Below, piece by piece: positions 16,417-27,848 of a DNA stretch of 64,000 nucleotides; position 1 is the stretch's first letter, and each line of letters starts with the position of its first letter. The notes below the pieces were generated by a model that saw only the letters and a list, made by a program, of their open reading frames with translations, did not search any database and was not told the DNA's origin. A program made the position numbers and the translations under genes. This DNA is from Sphingopyxis sp. H115 (GTDB lineage: Bacteria > Pseudomonadota > Alphaproteobacteria > Sphingomonadales > Sphingomonadaceae): NCBI RefSeq assembly GCF_001468465.1, contig NZ_LNSA01000007.1, forward strand, positions 62,001 through 126,000. The letters run 5' to 3'.

Positions 16417-17316
16417 ATGGCGATGGACAATCGGTTCGGCGATATCGAGACCTTTCTTGCGGTGGCGAGCGGCGGCAGCTTTGCCGCCGCGGCCAAGGCT
16501 CTGCGGCTGACCCCGTCGGCAGTCAGCCGCAGCATCGCGCGGCTGGAGCAGCGGCTGGGCATCATCCTGTTTCGCCGCACGACGCGCTCGCTCGCGCTGA
16601 CCGCCGAAGGCCTCACCTATCGCGACCGCATGAGCCTGTTGCTCGCCGAGATCGAGACGGTGGAGGCCGGGCTCGGACGGGACAGCCAGGGGCCGCGCGG
16701 GCTGCTCCGCGTCAACGCCTCGCCGTCGATCGGGGTGCCTTTGCTGCCGGTGCTGCCGAAATTCACCACGCGCTATCCGGAAATTATCCTCGACCTCGCG
16801 CTGTCCGACGCGATCGTCGACCTGGTCGAGGAGCGCGCCGACATCGCGATCCGCATCGGGCCGCTGCGCGACACCAGCCTGCGCGCGAAAAAGCTGGGCC
16901 GCAGCCGCATGGCGCTCGTTGCCAGCCCGGCCTATCTTGCGCGGCGCGGCACGCCGCAGACGCCTGACGATCTGGACGCGCACGATTGCCTGCGCTTCAG
17001 CTTCCGCCGCTCGATCGACAGCTGGCCGTTCCGTATCGGCGGCCGCGTCGTGCATCGCCCGGTGCACGGCAGCTTCTTCGGCAATTCGGGCGAGCTGGTG
17101 CGCCAGATGGCGGTCGCCGGCGGCGGCATTTCGCGCCACGGCCATTTTCATGTCGCGGCAGATCTGGCCGCGGGGCGGCTGGTCGAGGTGCTGACCGATC
17201 ATCATCCCGGCGATGGTGAGGATATCCATGCGCTCTACGCGCCCGAGGACCGGGCTGCCGCGCGCATTCGGGCGTTCCTCGATTTCCTCGACGAGGAACT
17301 GGTGATCGCGCCCTAA
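16417..17316 (+). CDS. LysR family transcriptional regulator
   Basis: A 299-aa LTTR. The N-terminal winged helix-turn-helix covers about residues 5-63 (FLAVASGGSFAAAAKAL, then TPSAVSRSIARLEQRLG), followed by the linker helix and a two-lobed inducer-binding domain of periplasmic-binding-protein type (VNASPSIGVPLLPVLPKF onward). The start could be either ATG 16417 or ATG 16423. It probably senses a small molecule linked to the divergent SDR. Its stop codon interlocks with that of pccR (CTAA at 17313-17316), so the two transcripts must overlap at their 3' ends. Confidence 0.93.
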   Translation: MAMDNRFGDIETFLAVASGGSFAAAAKALRLTPSAVSRSIARLEQRLGIILFRRTTRSLALTAEGLTYRDRMSLLLAEIETVEAGLGRDSQGPRGLLRVNASPSIGVPLLPVLPKFTTRYPEIILDLALSDAIVDLVEERADIAIRIGPLRDTSLRAKKLGRSRMALVASPAYLARRGTPQTPDDLDAHDCLRFSFRRSIDSWPFRIGGRVVHRPVHGSFFGNSGELVRQMAVAGGGISRHGHFHVAADLAAGRLVEVLTDHHPGDGEDIHALYAPEDRAAARIRAFLDFLDEELVIAP

Positions 17317-18722
17317 CCGATCCGGTACGGCACGACGTCGCGCCGGTCGGGATCGACAAGGATCGGGCGGTCGCTCGGCGGGAAGGCGCGTTGGTCGCAG
17401 TCGTCGCGCGGACAAATGCGGCACGACAGGCCGATGCGCGTCGCCGCCTGCGGTGCACTCACATCGACCCCGTCGGCATAGACGAAATCGGCGGCATATT
17501 GCGCCTCGCACCCGAGCGCGACGGCGTAGCGGCGCGGTGAGCGGGCGTAGCTGCCCGACGGTTTGACCAATCCCTTCGCCATCGACACATAGCGCAGGCC
17601 ATCGGGCGTCTCGGCGAGCTGGAACAATATCCGGTCGGGGATCGCCGCGGCCTCATGGACGATCCACAGCGGGCAGGCGCCCCCGAAGCGCGCGAATTGC
17701 AGCCGCGTCGCGCTGTGCCGCTTGGTGATGTTGCCCGCCATGTCGACGCGGCAGAAGAACATAGGAATCCCGCGCGCGCCGGGGCGCTGGAGGGTCGAGA
17801 GGCGGTGGCAGGCTTGTTCGAAACTCACGCCATATTCGAGGCGCAGCCGGTCGATGTCGTGGCGTACCGCGCGCGCACTGGCGCGGAATGGGGCGTAGGG
17901 CATGAGGACGGCGCCTGCGGCGTAATTGGCGAGGCCGACGTGGAGCAATTGGCGTGCGGCGGCGGTGCGCAGCGGGCTGGCCTCGACCACCGCCGCAATC
18001 TCGCGTGCCAGCGCCAGCGCGGCGAGCTGGTGCGCGAGCTGGAAACGGCGGCTCTCGGCGGGCTGCGATGGGTCGATCACCAGATGGCGCATCGTCGCGT
18101 CGAAATCGCGCAGGCTTTGCGTTTGCGTATAAACGATTGAGATGCCGAGCGCGTCGCGCAGCCGCCGCTCGATCGTCTCGATCGCGGGCGAGGGGGCCTT
18201 GCCGCGGAGCTGCGCGGCGAGCGCCTCGGCGGCGCGATCGATGCTGTCGACATAATTGCCCGCGTCGTGGAACCAGTCGCGCACCTCTTCCCATGGCAGG
18301 CGGCTGCCCTCGGCGGTGCCGCCGGTCAGCGCCTCGTCGATGATCTGCAGCCGCTGTCCCGCACGGCGGTAGGCGGCGTGGAGCGCGACGAACTGGTCGG
18401 CGAGTTGCGGCTGCTGGAGCGCGGCGCGTTCGAGCTGCTCGGGGGGCAGGGGGGATGCGGCGAAGAGCGGATCGGCGGCGGCTTCGCGGAGCGCACCCGC
18501 GCGGCGGTCGCCCGTTTCCGCGGCGACTTCCTCCCATTCGAGCGGGAACAGCTTTTGCAAGCGGTCGAGCAGCGCGGGGGTCAGCGGGCGATCGTCATGC
18601 TCGATCTGGCTGAGATAGGAGGCCGAGATGCAGAGCCGCGCGGCGAAGTCGGCCTGGCGGATCGCGCGGGTTTCCCGAAGTTGGCGAAGTTGCCGCCCAG
18701 CGTAGAGTCGGGTTTGCACCAT
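17313..18722 (-). CDS. pccR: ScfR/RamB/PrpR-type regulator of propionyl-CoA genes
   Basis: A 469-aa XRE-type regulator. I take ATG 18722 ([14 protein letters not shown]); an upstream in-frame start at 18758 would place coding sequence over the operator array. An XRE helix-turn-helix is at about residues 8-62 ([23 protein letters not shown]), followed by a M78-like middle region ([17 protein letters not shown]) and the C-terminal domain of short-chain fatty acyl-CoA regulators ([20 protein letters not shown], with cysteines [16 protein letters not shown] near the end). Family members RamB, PrpR and PccR of Rhodobacter control acetate or propionate genes by sensing acyl-CoA. Divergent placement beside pccB and TTTGCAAA boxes supports the same role. 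Confidence 0.9.
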
Positions 18723-18736
18723 CCGCGCGATGCTAC

Positions 18737-18781
18737 TTTGCAAACTTGCACTTTGCAACTTTGCAAATTCGCATTTGCATC
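18737..18781. promoter_or_regulatory. TTTGCAAA operator array, pccR-pccB divergent region
   Basis: The 110-bp region between pccR (start 18722) and pccB (start 18833) carries TTTGCAAA at 18737-18744 and 18760-18767, TTTGCAAC at 18752-18759, TTTGCATC at 18774-18781, and weaker CTTGCACT and ATTCGCAT between them. This octamer is the reported recognition element of ScfR-type regulators (RamB, PrpR, PccR). The copies follow each other every 7-8 bp rather than as two boxes with a short spacer. Confidence 0.8.
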
Positions 18782-18832
18782 GACTGTGCGAGCAAGGCAG
18801 ACGGCGCTGTCGCCATTGTTGAAGGGGTTCGC

Positions 18833-20365
18833 ATGTCCGCCAATATCGCCGAAATGGAACGCCGCCGTGCCGCCGCCCGCCTGGGCGGGGGGCAAAAGCG
18901 CATCGATGCGCAGCATGCCAAGGGCAAGCTGACCGCGCGCGAGCGGCTCGACGTGCTGCTCGACGAAGGATCGTTCGAGGAACTCGACACCTATGTCGAG
19001 CATGACTGCGTCGATTTCGGCATGGAAAAACAGAAGATCCCCGGCGACGGCGTTGTCACCGGATCGGGTACGATCAACGGCCGTCTCGTCTATGTTTTCA
19101 GCCAGGATTTCACCGTGTTCGGCGGGTCGCTGTCGAAGCGCCATGCCGAAAAGATCTGCAAGGTGATGGACAAGGCGATGCTCGCGGGCGTGCCGGTCAT
19201 CGGGCTCAATGACAGCGGCGGCGCGCGCATCCAGGAGGGCGTCGCGAGCCTCGGCGGCTATGCCGACGTGTTCCAGAAGAATGTGCTGGCGTCGGGGGTC
19301 GTGCCGCAGATCAGCCTCATCATGGGGCCGTGCGCGGGCGGGGCGGTTTACAGCCCGGCGATGACCGACTTCATCTTCATGGTGAAGGACAGCAGTTATA
19401 TGTTCGTCACCGGCCCCGATGTTGTCAAAACGGTGACGAACGAGGTGGTGACGCAAGAGGAGCTGGGCGGCGCGATCACGCACACGACCAAGAGCTCGGT
19501 CGCCGATATCGCGTTCGAAAATGATATCGAGACGCTGCTCGCGACGCGCGATTTCTTCGATTACCTGCCCGAAAACAACCGCAGTGGCGTGCCCGTCCGC
19601 CCGACCAGCGATCCCTATGACCGCGAGGACAAGAGCCTCGACACGCTGATCCCGCCCAATGCGAACCAGCCATACGACATGCACGAGCTGATCCGCAAAA
19701 CGGTCGACGAGGGCGATTTCTTCGAAGTGCAGCCGGCACATGCGGCGAATATCATCTGCGGCTTCGGGCGCATCGAGGGGCGGACGATCGGCATCGTCGC
19801 GAACCAGCCGCTGGTGCTCGCGGGCGTGCTCGACATCAATTCGTCAAAGAAGGCGGCGCGTTTCGTGCGCTTCTGCGACGCGTTCGAAATCCCGATCATC
19901 ACCTTCGTCGACGTCCCCGGCTTCCTGCCCGGCACGAGCCAAGAATATAACGGCATCATCAAGCATGGCGCGAAGCTGCTGTTCGCTTACGCCGAGGCGA
20001 CGGTGCCCAAGATCACGGTGATCACGCGCAAGGCCTATGGCGGCGCTTATGACGTGATGGCGTCGAAGCATCTGCGCGGCGATCTGAACTATGCCTGGCC
20101 AACCGCCGAGATCGCGGTGATGGGCGCGAAGGGCGCGGTCGAGATCATCTTCCGCAAGGACATCGGCGATCCCGAAAAGATCGCCGAGCGGACGAAGGAA
20201 TATGAGGAGCGCTTCGCCAACCCCTTCGTGGCGGCGTCGCGCGGCTATATCGACGAGGTGATCTACCCGCACTCGACGCGGCGACGGATCGCGCTGGGAC
20301 TAAGGAAGCTCAGAAACAAGAGCCTCGAGAATCCTTGGAAAAAGCATGATAATATTCCGTTGTGA
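18833..20365 (+). CDS. pccB: Propionyl-CoA carboxylase beta subunit
   Basis: A 510-aa carboxyltransferase subunit that moves CO2 from carboxybiotin (on PccA) to propionyl-CoA, giving methylmalonyl-CoA. Start ATG 18833 ([12 protein letters not shown]) follows GAAGGGG; an earlier in-frame ATG at 18746 lies inside the operator array and is not credible. The crotonase-like N-terminal half has the acyl-CoA and oxyanion glycines ([24 protein letters not shown]) and the C-terminal half has the biotin-site strand [14 protein letters not shown] and [11 protein letters not shown]. The end [18 protein letters not shown] is family-typical. It is first gene of the propionate operon. Confidence 0.97.
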
Positions 20366-20374
20366 GGTAATGCG

Positions 20375-20878
20375 ATGTCCCGGCTGGCAGTGCAAATAGT
20401 GATCGGCCTGATCTTCTTTGGGATCGTTTTGTTTCTATTTCAGAACGCAAGATCGAAAGCCTCGTTGGAAAAAATTGAGATCGACAAGCAAGAGGAAAAA
20501 AAAGAAGAAATCAGAATGATGTCTCGCTGGTTGGAAGCCTTTGTTGGATATTACGAGCTTGGCAATATGAACGAGTTTTTCGGTGAAATGAGAATTGGCG
20601 AGTCTGACACGCCAATTGAGAATGTTTACATTGCCTTGGAAGAAGTTGGTGCAGGCGCCATCGTTCCGCCGCTTAGAACGGCAGCGTATGCCTGCATTCA
20701 ATTTCATGAGAAGGTTGATGAACTGGACCATGAAAATGATGCAGAAGTGGTCCGCGTAGCGGAAAGCGAATATCGCCGCGTGACCAATCAATCTGACATG
20801 GAGATCAAGAAGCTGGGTATCAGCGTGTATGACCTCCTCAACGAATTTCGCGCAAAGAATATCGAGATTTTTCAATGA
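20375..20878 (+). CDS. Low-GC membrane-anchored protein of unknown function
   Basis: A 167-aa protein: one transmembrane helix near the N-terminus (VQIVIGLIFFGIVLFLF), a charged coiled-coil-like stretch (KIEIDKQEEKKEEI), then a helical soluble region with many Glu residues. It starts at ATG 20375 after TGAGGTAA. Base use is clearly different from its neighbours: the gene is A/T-rich with codons such as AAA, GAA, AAT and TTT where the flanking genes use GC-ending codons. It lies 9 bp after pccB and overlaps mce by ATGA, so it has been fitted into the operon. No family recognised; recent acquisition is likely. Confidence 0.8.
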   Translation: MSRLAVQIVIGLIFFGIVLFLFQNARSKASLEKIEIDKQEEKKEEIRMMSRWLEAFVGYYELGNMNEFFGEMRIGESDTPIENVYIALEEVGAGAIVPPLRTAAYACIQFHEKVDELDHENDAEVVRVAESEYRRVTNQSDMEIKKLGISVYDLLNEFRAKNIEIFQ

Positions 20879-21315
20879 AGTTAGGCCGCCTCAACCATAT
20901 CGGCGTCGCGACGCCGTCGATTGCCGACAGCGTCGTCTTTTACCGCGACGTGATGGGCGCGACGAAAATCCACGAGCCCTTCGACCTACCCGAGCAGGGC
21001 GTCAAAGTCTGCTTCGTCGATACGCCCGGCACCGACGGCGCGCTGAACGGCACGCAGATCGAACTGGTCGAGCCGTTGCCCGGCAACACCTCGATCGCGG
21101 GCTTCCTCGAGAAGAACCCGGCGGGCGGGCAGCATCATATGTGCTACGAAGTGCCCGACATCTACGCCGCCAAGGCCGCATTCGAGAGCATGGGCAAGCG
21201 CGTGCTCGGCGAGCCGCGGATCGGGGCGCATGGGACTTTGATCTTCTTCCTGCACCCCAAGGATATGGGCGGGGTGCTGACCGAGATTATGGAGACGCCG
21301 AAGGAGGCGCATTGA
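20875..21315 (+). CDS. mce: Methylmalonyl-CoA epimerase
   Basis: A 146-aa vicinal-oxygen-chelate protein converting (S)- to (R)-methylmalonyl-CoA, the isomer used by the mutase. The start KLGRLNHIGVATPS supplies the first metal-ligand histidine; later motifs are GTQIELVEPL, GGQHHMCYEVPDI and a C-terminal LIFFLHPKDMGGVLTEI, the usual sequence of the epimerase family. Length is normal. The gene overlaps the preceding low-GC gene by 4 bp, so it may depend on that gene's translation. Confidence 0.96.
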   Translation: MKLGRLNHIGVATPSIADSVVFYRDVMGATKIHEPFDLPEQGVKVCFVDTPGTDGALNGTQIELVEPLPGNTSIAGFLEKNPAGGQHHMCYEVPDIYAAKAAFESMGKRVLGEPRIGAHGTLIFFLHPKDMGGVLTEIMETPKEAH

Positions 21316-21513: not shown

Positions 21514-23661
21514 ATGACCGACAAACCCACGCTCGACCAATGGACGGCCGCCGCCGAGAAGGAAGTCAAAGGCAAGGACCTGACCTGGCACACGCCCGAA
21601 GGGATCGACGTCAAGCCGCTCTATACGGCGGAGGATGTGACAGTCGACCCCGGCCTGCCCGGTTTCGCGCCCTTCACCCGCGGCGTTCGCGCGTCGATGT
21701 ATGCGGGGCGGCCGTGGACGATCCGGCAATATGCAGGCTTTTCGACCGCCGAGGAGTCGAACGCTTTCTATCGCCGCAACCTTGCCGCGGGGCAGAAGGG
21801 GCTGTCAGTCGCCTTCGACCTTGCCACGCACCGCGGCTATGATAGCGATCATCCGCGCGTCGTCGGCGACGTCGGCAAGGCGGGCGTGGCGATCGACAGC
21901 GTCGAGGATATGAAGATCCTGTTCGACGGCATCCCACTCGACCAGATGTCGGTGTCGATGACGATGAACGGCGCGGTGATCCCCATCCTCGCCTTCTTCA
22001 TCGTCGCGGGCGAGGAGCAGGGGGTCGACCGCAAGCTGCTCGACGGGACGATCCAGAACGACATCCTCAAGGAGTTCATGGTCCGCAACACCTATATCTA
22101 TCCGCCCGAGCCGAGCATGCGGATCATCTCGGACATTTTCGGCTACACCAGCCGCGAGATGCCGAAGTTCAACAGCATCTCGATCTCCGGCTATCATATG
22201 CAGGAAGCCGGCGCGACGCAGGTGCAGGAGCTGGCCTTCACGATTGCCGACGGGGCGGAATATGTCCGCTACGGCGTTGCGTCGGGCCTCGACATCGACA
22301 AGTTCGCCGGACGCCTCTCCTTCTTCTTCGCGATCGGCATGAATTTCTTCATGGAGATTGCGAAGCTGCGCGCCGCGCGCGTGCTGTGGCACCGGGTGAT
22401 GACCAACCTTGGCGCCAAGGACGAGCGCAGCAAGATGCTGCGCACGCATTGCCAGACATCGGGGGTCAGCCTGACCGAGCAGGACCCGTACAACAATGTC
22501 ATGCGCACGACGATCGAGGCGATGGCGGCGATGCTGGGCGGCACCCAGTCGCTGCACACCAACGCGCTCGACGAGGCGATCGCGCTGCCGACCGATTTCT
22601 CGGCCCGCATCGCGCGCAACACGCAGATCGTCATCCAGGAAGAAACCGGGATGACCAAGGTCGTCGATCCGCTGGGTGGTAGCTATTATGTCGAGGCGCT
22701 GACGCAGGAGCTGGTCGACAAGGCGTGGGAGATTATCGAGCGCGTCGAGAAGGAAGGCGGCATGGCGAAGGCCGTCGCGGCGGGCTGGCCCAAGGCGATG
22801 ATCGAGACCGCGGCCGCGGCGCGGCAGGCGCGCGTCGACCGCGGCGACGACGTGATCGTCGGGGTGAACAAATATCGGCTGAAGGACGAGGACCTGCTCG
22901 AGACGCTCGAGGTCGATAACACCAGGGTCCGTGAGGCGCAGATCGCGCGCATCAACAAGACCAAGGCGGGCCGCGACGAAGCGGCGTGCCAGGCGGCGCT
23001 GAAGGCGCTGCGCGATGCGGCGGCGGGCGAGCAGTCGATCGAGAATAATTTGCTCGCGCATGCGGTCGAGGCCGCGCGCGCGCGCGCGACGCTCGGCGAG
23101 ATTTCGTCGGCGATGGAGGAAAGTTTCCAGCGCTATGCGACGCAGCCAACCCCGGTGAAGGGCGTTTACGCCGCGCCCTATGAAGGCGACGATCGCTGGC
23201 AGCAGGTGCTCGACGGCGTAGAGGCGGTCGAACGCCGCATGGGACGCAAACCCAAACTGCTCGTCGCCAAGATGGGGCAGGACGGACACGACCGCGGCGC
23301 CAACGTCATCGCCTCGGCGTTCGGCGACATGGGGTTCGATGTCGTGTCGGGGCCTTTGTTCCAGACGCCCGAGGAGACAGTCGTGCTGGCGCTCGAAAAC
23401 GAGGTCGACGTCGTCGGCGCGTCGAGCCTGGCGGCGGGGCACAAGACACTTATCCCCGAACTTATCCACAAGTTGAAGGAAGCGGGGCGCGGCGACATCA
23501 AGGTGATCGCGGGCGGGGTGATCCCGCCGCAGGATTATCAATATCTGCGCGACGCGGGGGTGCAGGGGATTTACGGCCCCGGCTCGAACGTCGTCGAATG
23601 CGCGGCCGATGTGCTGCGCTTGCTGGGGCATAATATGCCGCCATTGGAGGATGCAGCATGA
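21514..23661 (+). CDS. scpA: Methylmalonyl-CoA mutase, single-subunit type
   Basis: A 715-aa adenosylcobalamin-dependent mutase making succinyl-CoA from (R)-methylmalonyl-CoA. The catalytic TIM-barrel half includes the [20 protein letters not shown] stretch and a later [25 protein letters not shown] region (positions near 22618-22680). The C-terminal B12 domain has GQDGHDRG with the cobalt-ligand histidine (D-x-H-x2-G). Both halves are in one chain, as in the homodimeric bacterial enzyme. Start ATG 21514 follows AGGAAATGAATT. The usual GTPase chaperone gene is not present in this window. Confidence 0.98.
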
Positions 23662-24458
23662 GCCTTGCGCTCGCCCTGTTATTGGCGACTGCCCCGGCGG
23701 CCGATGCGCCGCCGGTCAAGAAGGCGCCGCAGCCATCGGTGCGGCTGTCGCTGCGTTCGATCACTCGAGACGATGCGATCATTAGGCCCGCAGCGCCGCG
23801 ATCGGCGCCGCATGGTTGGGTGAGCGACGCCGACTATCCGGTGGATAAACTGCCCGGCGAGTGGCTGGTCACAGACGTCGATATCGACATCGCGGTGGCG
23901 GAGGACGATAGCGTCGCCGGCTGCACCGCCACCGTTTCACGAGTGAAGGATCGTGGCGGGGCGGCTCTGGGTGAAGAAGCGCGCGCGCAGGCCGAGACGT
24001 TGCTTGCGGCGCGCGCTTGCCGGATTGTCCGTGAGCGTGGAGGTTTTCGCCATGCCATCGATGCCGAAGGGGTGCCGCACCTTGCGAAGGTGGCGATGCG
24101 GATGAGCTTTTCCGCCGTGCCGGTTCTTGTCAGGGCGGCGGCGCGCGACCCGCAACCCCGCCCCTATCGCACGATGGCGCGGCCGCTCGACGCGACTATT
24201 CTCAATTTTCGGGGCGATCCGGGGCAGCAGGTCGATTCCAGTCGGCTTCGCGCACCGGCCGCCGAACTTTCGATTGACGCTGAGGGGCGCGTTGCGCGCT
24301 GCCGCGTTGCCGTCTCGACGGGCAGCGACAATGGTGACGCCGCGATGTGCCGCCAGCTTCGCGCCGCAGCGTTCGAACCCGCGCGCGACCGGGCGGGCAA
24401 CGGATTGCCCGACGGATATTATTTTGCAGCCATGACGATCGGAGTCTCTTCCAAATGA
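23658..24458 (+). CDS. Exported protein with two TonB_C-like domains
   Basis: A 266-aa protein overlapping the mutase stop by ATGA. A short signal peptide ([17 protein letters not shown]) leads to two similar domains: residues about 45-150 ([20 protein letters not shown], then an A-x-L-x-C-R-I motif) and about 180-266 ([20 protein letters not shown], then [14 protein letters not shown]). The pattern 'D-x-x-G-x-V-x-x-C-x-V-x-x-S-G ... F-x-P-A' is that of the TonB C-terminal domain, seen in many sphingomonad envelope proteins. There is no TonB membrane anchor or Pro-rich spacer, so it is probably a soluble periplasmic protein. Its link to propionate use is unknown. Confidence 0.7.
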
Positions 24459-25474
24459 CCGGTGAATTTTCTGTCGAAACCGCACCACGCACCGACTGGA
24501 CGCGCGAGGAAATCGCTGAACTGTTCGACCTGCCGTTCGACGAGCTGATGTGGGAGGCGCAGGGCGTCCACCGCCGTTTTCATGCGCGTGGCGAGGTGCA
24601 GCTTTGCACCCTGCTTTCGATCAAGACCGGCGGCTGCGTCGAGGATTGCGGCTATTGCTCGCAGTCGAAGAGCGCCGACAGCGGTTTGAAGGCGACCAAG
24701 CTGATGGACGTGCGCGCGGTGCTGCAGGCGGCGGCGCAGGCGAAGGATGCGGGGTCGAAGCGCTTCTGCATGGGCGCTGCGTGGCGCAACCCCAAGGACC
24801 GCGACATGCCCGCGATCGTCGAGATGGTCGAGGGCGTGCGCGCGATGGGCATGGAAACCTGCATGACGCTGGGGATGCTGAGCAAGGAGCAGGCGCAGAC
24901 GCTCGCGGTCGCGGGGCTCGATTATTATAACCACAACATTGACACCTCGCCGGAAAATTACGGCAATGTCATCACGACGCGGACTTTCCAGGAGCGGCTG
25001 GATACGCTGGAGGAAGTGCGCGCGGCGGGGATCAACGTGTGCAGCGGCGGTATCGTCGGCATGGGCGAGACGCGCGCCGACCGCGTCGGCTTCATCCATG
25101 CGCTCGCGACCCTGCCCGAACATCCGGGCAGCGTGCCGATCAACGCGTTGGTGCCGGTGAAGGGGACCGTGCTCGGCGACATGCTGGCGGACACGCCGCT
25201 CGCAAAGATCGACGATATCGAATTCGTCCGCACGATTGCGGTCGCGCGCATCACTATGCCGATGAGCATGGTGCGTCTGTCGGCGGGCCGCGAGAGCATG
25301 TCGGAGGCGACGCAGGCGCTCTGCTTCATGGCGGGCGCGAACAGCATCTTCACGGGCGACAAGCTGCTGACGACGGCGAACGCGGGCGACAATGCCGACG
25401 CGGCGCTGTTCGCGAAGCTGGGGCTGCGGCCGATGGAGAGCGAAGAGCCGATGCGGATGGAGGCGGCGGAGTGA
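24455..25474 (+). CDS. bioB: Biotin synthase
   Basis: A 339-aa radical-SAM enzyme inserting sulfur into dethiobiotin. The true start is ATG 24455 ([12 protein letters not shown]), overlapping the upstream stop by ATGA; the frame extends upstream only as a shadow. The radical-SAM cluster ligands Cys61, Cys65 and Cys68 are in [20 protein letters not shown] and GGIVGMGET are further family signatures, as is [22 protein letters not shown] with the arginine of the [2Fe-2S] site. Its presence inside the operon supplies cofactor for the biotin carboxylase PccA. The rest of the bio pathway is not in this window. Confidence 0.97.
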
Positions 25475-25842
25475 AAAGGACCAGGGTGTTCTGGCTTGTC
25501 GTATTGATCGCTGGAAGTTTGCAGGCGACGGAAGCGGCAGCATGTATTCCGAACTCGTTGGAAGAGACCAAGAAGTTCAGCGACGTTATCGTTGAAGGCA
25601 CTTTCATCGTGGATTCCAAGGTCCGTGGCGAAGGCCATATTGTGGCGGCGCGGACGCTAAAGGGAACTCGTGAGAAGATGTACGCAGTTCGCTGGAACCC
25701 TGAGCTTTTGCCCGAAAGCCTTCCCGATTGTGGAGTGGAGATACCGGAATCTGGCTTATTTGAGGGCCTGAGCCTGAGGGAGCGGGAGGATGGAACGTAC
25801 CAGCTTACCGGTCGATGGCAGCCCGCAAAGAAGGATCGCTAA
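25471..25842 (+). CDS. Small exported protein of unknown function
   Basis: A 123-aa protein starting at GTG 25471 inside the bioB stop codon region (GTGA overlap). A signal peptide ([15 protein letters not shown], cleavage near EAAAC) is followed by a short domain with a possible beta-rich fold ([37 protein letters not shown]). Two cysteines in the mature part could pair. Base composition is lower in GC than bioB and pccA. The stop overlaps the pccA start (TAATG). I recognise no family; coupling on both sides suggests the cell needs it made with the operon, or that it is a neutral insertion. Confidence 0.7.
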
Positions 25843-27848
25843 TGTTCAAGAAAATCCTGATTGCCAATCGCGGCGAAATCGCTTGCCGCGTCATCAAGAC
25901 CGCGCGGCGCATGGGCATCGCGACCGTTGCCGTCTATTCGGATGCCGACGCGCGCGCGCCCTTTGTGCAGATGGCCGACGAGGCGGTGCATATCGGGCCG
26001 TCGCCGGCGTCCGAATCCTATCTGATCGCCGACAAGATCATCGCCGCGTGCAAGGCGACCGGGGCCGAGGCGGTGCATCCGGGCTATGGCTTCCTGTCGG
26101 AGCGCACCAGCTTTGCCGAGGCGCTCGCGAAGGAAAATATCGCCTTCATCGGCCCGCCGGTGAACGCGATCGCCGCGATGGGCGACAAGATCGAGTCGAA
26201 GAAGCTTGCGAAGGAAGCGGGGGTCAATGTCGTCCCCGGCTTCGTCGGCGAGATTCGCGACACAGAACATGCGGTCGAGATTTCGAACGAGATCGGCTAT
26301 CCGGTGATGATGAAGGCGTCGGCGGGCGGCGGCGGCAAGGGGATGCGCCTCGCCTATGACGAAAAGGACGTCCGCGAAGGCTTCGAGGCGACGAAGCGCG
26401 AGGGGCTCAACAGCTTCGGCGACGACCGCGTCTTTATCGAGAAGTTCATTCTCAATCCGCGCCACATCGAGATCCAGATCCTCGGCGACCAGCACGGCAA
26501 TATCCTTTACCTCAACGAGCGCGAATGCAGCATCCAGCGGCGGCATCAAAAGGTCGTCGAGGAGGCGCCTTCGCCTTTTGTGACCGAGAAGATGCGCAAG
26601 GCGATGGGCGAACAGTGCGTCGCGCTGGCGCGCGCGGTCGGCTATTATAGCGCGGGCACGGTCGAGCTGATCGTGTCGGGCGCCGACCCGACGGGCGAGA
26701 GCTTCTACTTTCTCGAGATGAACACGCGACTGCAGGTCGAGCATCCGGTGACCGAGGCGATCACGGGCATCGACTTGGTCGAGCAGATGATCCGCGTCGC
26801 CGCGGGCCAGAAGCTCGGAATGACGCAGGACGATATCAAGATCGACGGCTGGGCGATCGAGAACCGCGTCTATGCCGAGGATCCCTATCGCGGCTTCCTG
26901 CCCTCGACCGGGCGGCTGGTGCGCTATCGCACCCCGGTTCCCGCGTGGGAAGGCGATGAGCGCGGGGTCGATGGCGTGCGCGTCGATGCGGGGGTTGAGG
27001 AGGGGGGCGAGGTGTCGATCTTCTACGACCCGATGATCGCCAAGCTGGTGACATGGGGCGAGACGCGCGACGCGGCGGCGGACTTGCAGGTTGCGGCGCT
27101 CGACCGCTTCGAGATCGAGGGGCTGGGCCACAACATCGACTTCGTCTCGGCGATCATGCAGCATCCGCGCTTCCGCTCGGGCGAACTGACGACGGGCTTC
27201 ATCGCGGAGGAATATCCCGAGGGCTTCCACGGCGCGCCGACCGACGCGAAGATCACGCGCGCGCTTGCGGCGATTGCGGGCTTCATGGCGTCGGCCGAGG
27301 CGGATCGCGCGCGCCGCACCGACGGCCAGCTCGGCGACAGGCTCGAACCGCCGGCCAAGTGGCAGGTGTCGATCGATGGCGCCCCGCACAAGGTCAAGAT
27401 CGGCGAAAAGCATATCAAGGTCGAGGGCGACCGGATCGACATCGCGCTCGAATATACGCCGGGCGACCGGCTGGTGGTCGCCGAGATCGACGATAGCGAG
27501 CTGGCGGTGAAGGTCACGAAGACGCGCACCGGCTGGAAGATGACGACCCGCGGGGCCATTCACGACGTGCGTGTGCTGCCCTGGCGTATCGCGTCGCTTG
27601 CGGGTCACATGATCGAAAAGATTCCGCCCGACCTGTCGAAATTCCTCATCTGCCCGATGCCGGGCCTGCTCGTCGCGCTGCATGTCGGCGAGGGCGACAA
27701 GGTCGAGGCGGGCCAGCCGCTCGCGACGGTCGAGGCGATGAAGATGGAGAATATCCTGCGCGCCGAAAAGGCCGGGACGGTGAAGACCGTCAACGCGGCG
27801 CAGGGCGATAGCCTCGCGGTCGATGCGGTGATTCTGGAGATGGAATGA
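25842..27848 (+). CDS. pccA: Propionyl-CoA carboxylase alpha subunit (biotin carboxylase + BCCP)
   Basis: A 668-aa protein that carboxylates biotin with ATP and bicarbonate. Start ATG 25842 ([17 protein letters not shown]) follows AAGAAGG. The biotin-carboxylase part covers about residues 1-450: ATP-grasp glycine loop KASAGGGGKGMR, HIEIQILGDQHGN, RECSIQRRHQK and EMNTRLQVEHPVTE. A middle BT domain links to the biotinyl domain with Lys634 in VEAMKMEN, the biotin attachment site. Partner of PccB; its separation from pccB by five genes is notable but both are in the same operon. Confidence 0.98.
   Translation: MFKKILIANRGEIACRVIKTARRMGIATVAVYSDADARAPFVQMADEAVHIGPSPASESYLIADKIIAACKATGAEAVHPGYGFLSERTSFAEALAKENIAFIGPPVNAIAAMGDKIESKKLAKEAGVNVVPGFVGEIRDTEHAVEISNEIGYPVMMKASAGGGGKGMRLAYDEKDVREGFEATKREGLNSFGDDRVFIEKFILNPRHIEIQILGDQHGNILYLNERECSIQRRHQKVVEEAPSPFVTEKMRKAMGEQCVALARAVGYYSAGTVELIVSGADPTGESFYFLEMNTRLQVEHPVTEAITGIDLVEQMIRVAAGQKLGMTQDDIKIDGWAIENRVYAEDPYRGFLPSTGRLVRYRTPVPAWEGDERGVDGVRVDAGVEEGGEVSIFYDPMIAKLVTWGETRDAAADLQVAALDRFEIEGLGHNIDFVSAIMQHPRFRSGELTTGFIAEEYPEGFHGAPTDAKITRALAAIAGFMASAEADRARRTDGQLGDRLEPPAKWQVSIDGAPHKVKIGEKHIKVEGDRIDIALEYTPGDRLVVAEIDDSELAVKVTKTRTGWKMTTRGAIHDVRVLPWRIASLAGHMIEKIPPDLSKFLICPMPGLLVALHVGEGDKVEAGQPLATVEAMKMENILRAEKAGTVKTVNAAQGDSLAVDAVILEME

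Follow-up and report, generated by a model that had tools for sequence, protein, structure and literature searches.

The closest described counterparts of the locus considered here are regulators of the ScfR family. In Rhodobacter (Cereibacter) sphaeroides one such protein, PccR, controls pccB (PMC12632250), and in Rhodobacter capsulatus pccR is required for growth on propionate (PMC10370305). PrpR of Mycobacterium tuberculosis (MtPrpR) recognises a site at prpD/prpR that reads TTTGCAAA-1-TTTGCgAA and lies within a 25-bp footprint (PMC3420887); the protein is a tetramer, binds CoA thioesters and has related sites in common with MtRamB (PMC6765138). The class 2 RamB of Paracoccus denitrificans is an activator that works through two near-identical boxes, both of them required (PMC10370305). 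Among sphingomonads, pccR of Rhizorhabdus has been named as a hypothetical regulator, and a pccB insertion mutant of Rhizorhabdus wittichii grows poorly on ibuprofen (PMC9195938); propionyl-CoA use is relevant to pollutant breakdown by this group. No operator of a sphingomonad pccR was recognised by title among the literature matches listed, in which subscription journals were sparsely covered, and one may already be in print. What follows is a base-by-base description of a candidate operator, for a regulator family whose described sites, in the available parts of these sources, mostly comprise two boxes with varying spacers.

The window analysed, a stretch of 64,000 nucleotides from Sphingopyxis sp. 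H115, carries pccR (17313-18722, minus strand) and its predicted target pccB, encoding the propionyl-CoA carboxylase beta subunit (18833-20365, plus strand; PF01039, E 8e-200), in divergent orientation across an intergenic region of 110 bp (18723-18832) bounded by ATG 18722 on the minus strand and ATG 18833 on the plus strand. The 469-residue product of pccR, the predicted binder, combines an XRE helix-turn-helix (PF01381/PF13560), an IrrE-like Peptidase_M78 domain (PF06114, E 3.2e-19) and a C-terminal ScfRs domain (PF09856, E 2.5e-64), and PF01381, PF06114 and PF09856, the domain set of the family, all score above their cut-offs. It aligns with the MtPrpR structures 6cz6/6cyy at E 1.3e-77 and keeps their CX2CX4C iron-sulfur ligands (CRICPRDDC against CKICNRTSC); its GGACPLW aligns with GGSCPLW of MtPrpR and may contribute the fourth ligand of the predicted cluster. 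Against the model for RamB of actinobacteria (NCBIfam NF038139) it scores 404.9 bits, under the equivalog cut-off of 700. Its domains place the protein in the ScfR family, as the first-pass annotation had proposed, whilst the name PccR comes from gene context, namely methylmalonyl-CoA pathway genes nearby and divergence from pccB, an orientation found at 134 loci.

Downstream of pccB lie, all on the plus strand, the genes for methylmalonyl-CoA epimerase (20875-21315; TIGR03081 above cut-off), which shares both pathway and strand with pccB, and methylmalonyl-CoA mutase (21514-23661; NF006944 above cut-off), then bioB, encoding biotin synthase (24419-25474, start codon uncertain; TIGR00433 above cut-off), biotin being the cofactor of propionyl-CoA carboxylase. 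Further along the same strand is a pccA-like gene for a biotin carboxylase/carrier subunit (25815-27848), which models match only below their cut-offs (best 25 of 53) and which takes its name from gene context. Between pccB and the epimerase gene is an open reading frame of 167 codons (20375-20878, plus strand) with 45% GC against 62-65% around it. It has neither a Pfam match nor a tblastn match in the 181 loci described below, 70 of them extending 2.1 kb beyond the start of pccB, and a search of 40 further related genomes gave nothing, the single hit among 41 being itself; it looks like an insertion within the pathway gene cluster.

The first-pass annotation had described the intergenic region as a regular six-copy array of octamers repeated every 7-8 bp. 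An exact sequence check of the window found every copy in place: TTTGCAAA at 18737-18744 and 18760-18767, TTTGCAAC at 18752-18759, TTTGCATC at 18774-18781, and the weaker CTTGCACT at 18745 and TTCGCATT at 18768. Of these copies, a one-mismatch scan of the window with TTTGCAAA recovers only those at 18737, 18752 and 18760. TTGCA occurs five times within the 110 bp, against 0.06 expected at the window rate, and TTTGC/GCAAA six times; when this stretch was resampled at first order, 91 of 20,000 sequences reached the latter count. Taken alone, TTTGCAAA shows no enrichment across the window (10 sites at up to one mismatch against 13.1 expected), so it is clustering and conservation that carry the weight. 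In this genome a 21-nt inverted repeat centred on 18752, 86% complementary, additionally spans 18730-18774, and a non-conserved gap word makes up part of one arm.

Conservation was assessed in the regulator upstream regions from the best 80 of 316 relatives' contigs, four of which (L026, L028, L032, L068) are placed at class or phylum level only, and from 100 further genome stretches, giving 181 loci with the window included. A pccB match was present in the fetched piece at 139 loci and absent from the piece at 42. Of the former, 134 were kept, in which pccB diverges from a PccR-type regulator of the sphingomonad kind, and five were dropped as belonging to other families (L096, L098, L099, L101) or to a more distant ScfR (L192). 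At a fixed spacing of A-7-B-0-C-0-D, 133 of the 134 loci score 25-32 of 32 positions against a consensus derived from the same loci that it scores, and 60 of them, the window included, score 32/32; the maximum in 2,680 resamples, which here as elsewhere are first-order random sequences and not exact shuffles, was 22/32. None of the five dropped loci has the full site, since they score only 22, 19, 23, 19 and 19 of 32 respectively. One of the 42 loci left out (L051), whose piece stops short of pccB, scores 32/32. The single exception among the 134, L190 (G338), has a divergent pccB yet reaches only 18/32 in the expected orientation; a weaker word lies on its opposite strand (23/32, with none of 100 resamples as good). 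Box B is no longer recognisable in L146, L148 and L150.

Because the two sources of loci overlap in species, columns were counted on distinct windows only, 126 in number. Between near-random flanks, conservation spans a block at 18734-18778. It opens with TA-n-TTTGCAAA-n-T, which a gap of low conservation separates from AC, and this is followed by TTYGCAAC TTYGCAAA TTCRCATT and finally TTTG or TTGG. Box A (18737-18744, no strand assigned), delimited by column information, is TTTGCAAA exactly in 109/126 windows and within one mismatch in 119/126, its palindrome extended by the flanking A18735 and T18746. Box B, TTYGCAAC (18752-18759, plus strand; exact in 93/126, within one mismatch in 120/126), abuts box C, TTYGCAAA (18760-18767, plus strand; 83/126 and 118/126), and box D, TTCRCATT (18768-18775, plus strand; 97/126 and 115/126), is a fourth box that has diverged and adjoins the predicted -35 element of pccB. 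The proposed six-copy array accordingly gives way to three octamers and one diverged box. Its period of 7-8 bp survives in the 8-bp steps from B to C and from C to D, but the step from A to B is 15 bp and the intervening copy is not conserved. This candidate box, CTTGCAC within the 7-bp A-B spacer (18745-18751, no strand assigned), was rejected: TYGCA occupies 18746-18750 in only 3/126 windows, where 5.6 would be expected from column frequencies and 0.2 from a neutral background, although the plurality bases there do tend towards TYGCA. The copy at 18774 was likewise set aside as a box. It reads TTTGC in 79/126 windows, and was reinterpreted as a -35-like element because TTGG replaces TTTG in 38/126, as would be expected of a -35 hexamer.

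Two readings in which the repeats have no regulatory meaning can be weighed at this point. That they are a chance cluster, or a tandem repeat born of slippage, would agree with the 8-bp and 23-bp periods reported by Tandem Repeats Finder and with the lack of enrichment of the octamer alone; yet spacing and sequence are fixed in 133/134 loci whilst the flanks and the distance from box C to the pccB start (49-259 bp) vary, and conservation of this order refutes the idea, leaving it a negligible probability. A coding role, with pccR (from 18758) or pccB (from 18746) starting at a TTG further upstream and running through the repeats, draws on open frames that do exist here. The distance from the block to the ATG of pccR is, however, very different among relatives (e.g. 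L007, L020), as is that to the pccB start; on this comparison of distances a common reading frame is unlikely, and this second reading is scarcely more credible than the first. The absence of the array from related pccR-pccB promoters, which the first-pass annotation had named as grounds for abandoning an operator, is not what the relatives reveal: the site is kept along with the regulator.

Set against the operators already described, the site is of a recognisable kind in an arrangement of its own. PccR of R. sphaeroides is, in the available part of the source, also an ScfR regulator at pccB, and the likeness reportedly extends to the boxes: Carter and Alber (2015) are said to have found two TTTGCAAA-type boxes upstream of R. 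sphaeroides pccB, spaced TTTGCAAA-X4-TTTGCAAA, whereas the order here is A-7-B-0-C-0-D. When spacing was left free, that X4 interval was not found, the A-B gap being 7 in 131/133 loci and the B-C gap 0 in 132/133. The abutment of B and C also sets the site apart from the 1-bp octamer spacing of MtPrpR, with which it shares a divergent regulator-target region, two successive octamers and a homologous regulator; the target there is the methylcitrate cycle, and no box A or D is mentioned in the part of the paper that was available (PMC3420887). Boxes B and C thus look like the MtPrpR double site minus its spacer, with D as an apparent extension to the -35 and A as a putative satellite 15 bp upstream. 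Paracoccus RamB is similarly an ScfR regulator with multiple boxes, but these are separated by an 18-bp spacer and serve a glyoxylate-cycle target (PMC10370305, in part). The 13-bp motif of Corynebacterium glutamicum RamB, AA/GAACTTTGCAAA, contains the octamer, but is a single motif, acting mostly in repression and at acetate genes (PMC4448153, in part). Since B, C and D are directly contiguous, the suggestion that the arrangement is denser than the published two-box operators holds for those operators as far as their sources were available. The site is real and well conserved, and its spacing of 7 and then 0 differs from that of the ScfR operators compared.

The position of the boxes relative to the two genes suggests how such a site might work. 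The predicted -35 element of pccB (18775-18780, plus strand), placed where 18774-18777 is kept as TTTG or TTGG, reads TTGCAT in the window and TTGGAC, at 18774-18779, in other genera. The predicted -10 element (18798-18803, plus strand) is CAGACG, whose A18799 is present in 119/126 windows at a constant distance from the operator, and in 51/51, 34/38 and 34/37 windows of three groups whose flanks otherwise differ. In sigma-70 promoters the -35 element lies 24 bp from position -11, and the pccB elements are placed at 18775 and 18798 because TTG 18775 is 24 bp from A18799. On the minus strand, the predicted -35 of pccR (18753-18758, TTGCAA) falls within box B at a 17-bp spacing from the TA at 18735-18734, the predicted -10 (18730-18735, TAGCAT) lying beside box A. 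T18734 is kept in 96/126 windows and A18735 in 105/126; this TA may be the -10 of pccR or may belong to an extended operator, given the symmetric placement of A18735 and T18746 around box A. A promoter scan on both strands returned no consensus promoter.

On its sequence, conservation, spacing and co-occurrence, and on the retention of C-D at most unlinked pccB genes, the site is most probably the operator of the divergent ScfR/PccR-type regulator and controls both promoters, C-D activating pccB and A-B limiting pccR. For this PccR site we infer binding, oligomeric form, promoter elements, direction of regulation and ligand as follows. PccR would bind B, C and D together with the satellite box A, probably in the form of a dimer of dimers as in MtPrpR. 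Loaded with acyl-CoA, PccR on C-D would recruit RNA polymerase to the pccB promoter, whose predicted -10 departs strongly from consensus, from a class-II-like position, which is suggested because C-D ends directly at the predicted -35. The same occupancy would limit expression of pccR, as A and B sit on its predicted -10/-35 region. Cooperative loading and a graded acyl-CoA response, both suggested in the first-pass annotation, may be added to this scheme as hypotheses. This combination of class-II-like activation with repression through A-B is proposed because Paracoccus RamB activates and R. capsulatus pccR is needed on propionate, so far as the available parts of the source go. Accumulation of propionyl-CoA would then lead to a rise of pccB and the epimerase, mutase, bioB and pccA-like genes. 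Most likely, then, PccR turns on propionate use and restrains its own production.

The B-C-D word, with at most two mismatches, was located at 38 places in 34 of 199 genomes of the family; a control word of reversed pattern was in none. All 34 fall within the 61 genomes that have a PccR-type regulator (60 at E below 1e-150 plus the partial match G316), an overlap with a hypergeometric probability of 6e-22 when kinship is ignored; in the remaining 27 of the 61 the word is absent at that threshold. These figures bear on whether the octamers are bound by another common regulator, such as a RamB-type paralogue, and not by PccR. The genome does encode a second ScfR protein, RamB-like (G000:C18), and MtPrpR and MtRamB have related sites (PMC6765138, in part). 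The region upstream of the paralogue has no TTTGCAAA, however, and B-C-D is confined to PccR-type genomes (34/34), with 31 of its 38 places adjoining pccR by coordinates; binding by another regulator is improbable on these grounds. Words resembling B-C or C-D elsewhere in the Sphingopyxis genome have 2-3 mismatches and no second site is claimed; the one inspected (C21:3149) has no box arrangement.

Genomes in which pccB and pccR are unlinked amount to natural dissections of the divergent promoter, and the family includes five (G361, G428, G439, G456 and G451). The unlinked pccB keeps C-D in the first four, scoring 16, 18, 18 and 17 of 18 respectively, with at most 2 in 1000 resamples as good, and the pccR promoters of these genomes have C-D at no more than 13/18, a chance level (66-504 in 1000 resamples). 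At pccB of G451 there is no site (C-D 10/18, 296 of 300 resamples as good), and the regulator match in that genome misses its first 56 residues, where the helix-turn-helix sits. As four of five unlinked pccB genes retain it, C-D mostly goes with the gene that it presumably controls. The A-7-B module at the unlinked pccR is clear in G361 (15/16, none of 1000 resamples as good), borderline in G428 (19/1000) and not significant in G456 (59/1000) and G439 (274/1000), so a tie between A-B and pccR is suggestive only. Many regulators bind their own promoters, and the site might mainly serve autoregulation of pccR, with pccB controlled otherwise and C-D kept by promoter proximity only; the overlap of A and B with the predicted pccR promoter fits this, as does the lack of a site at the unlinked pccB of G451. 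Against it stand the presence of C-D at pccB and not at pccR in four of the five unlinked genomes and its occurrence upstream of etfB (eight genomes) and of an aconitase-family gene, and we think the autoregulatory explanation unlikely.

With an operator of both promoters as the preferred reading, the remaining occurrences become candidate targets. Seven of the 38 B-C-D places are not beside pccR, one of them being the pccB of G456. In L231, L233, L235, L236 and L237 the site lies just behind a gene for succinyl-CoA synthetase beta and ahead of etfB, the gene for the electron-transfer flavoprotein beta subunit, the domains in these neighbourhoods having been verified by Pfam in L233 only. Of 72 listed places, 40 further pieces upstream of etfB were scored and three have the site (L259, L263, L273); among the 38 that come from PccR-type genomes it is absent from 35, and it is absent from both pieces from PccR-less genomes. 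The etfB promoter of the Sphingopyxis genome itself has no site (21/35, equalled in 8 of 100 resamples). A link to etfB therefore holds for a minority only, eight sphingomonads in all, in which the operator model predicts etfB as a second target. In L234 (G315:C1, about 563775-563801) a full-looking operator copy precedes a TonB-receptor-like gene and is divergent from a ferredoxin-NADP-reductase-like gene, both named by reading.

The model also predicts a move of the operator onto an aconitase-family gene in one genome. G331 has no pccB match at E<=1e-150, and its regulator, 56% identical, is divergent from that gene, which we take to be AcnD and which is followed by a PrpF-like frame named by reading (L241/L189). 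The spacer between them holds TTTGCAAA-14-TTCGCAAATCCACATTTGC, that is A-14-C-D with box B missing, and the C-D word scores 17/18, with none of 300 resamples as good. Taken further, the site may be a four-part operator that arose in sphingomonads and serves one regulator as two modules, in which C-D activates pccB and some etfB genes, A-B limits pccR, and the modules are separable along with their genes. This extension is tentative, and rather more likely wrong than right; if true, it would connect the carboxylation of propionyl-CoA with the electron-transfer flavoprotein serving the acyl-CoA dehydrogenases.

Other arrangements were noted outside the family, for the most part as impressions from reading. 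Several pccB promoters at class level had no boxes to the pattern used, L098 appears to have a 12-bp spacing, and TTTACAA-type boxes seem frequent among class-level ScfRs. The pccB promoters of G022 and G154 (L297, L298) carry, again by reading, two abutting-octamer TTTGC pairs about 40 bp apart.
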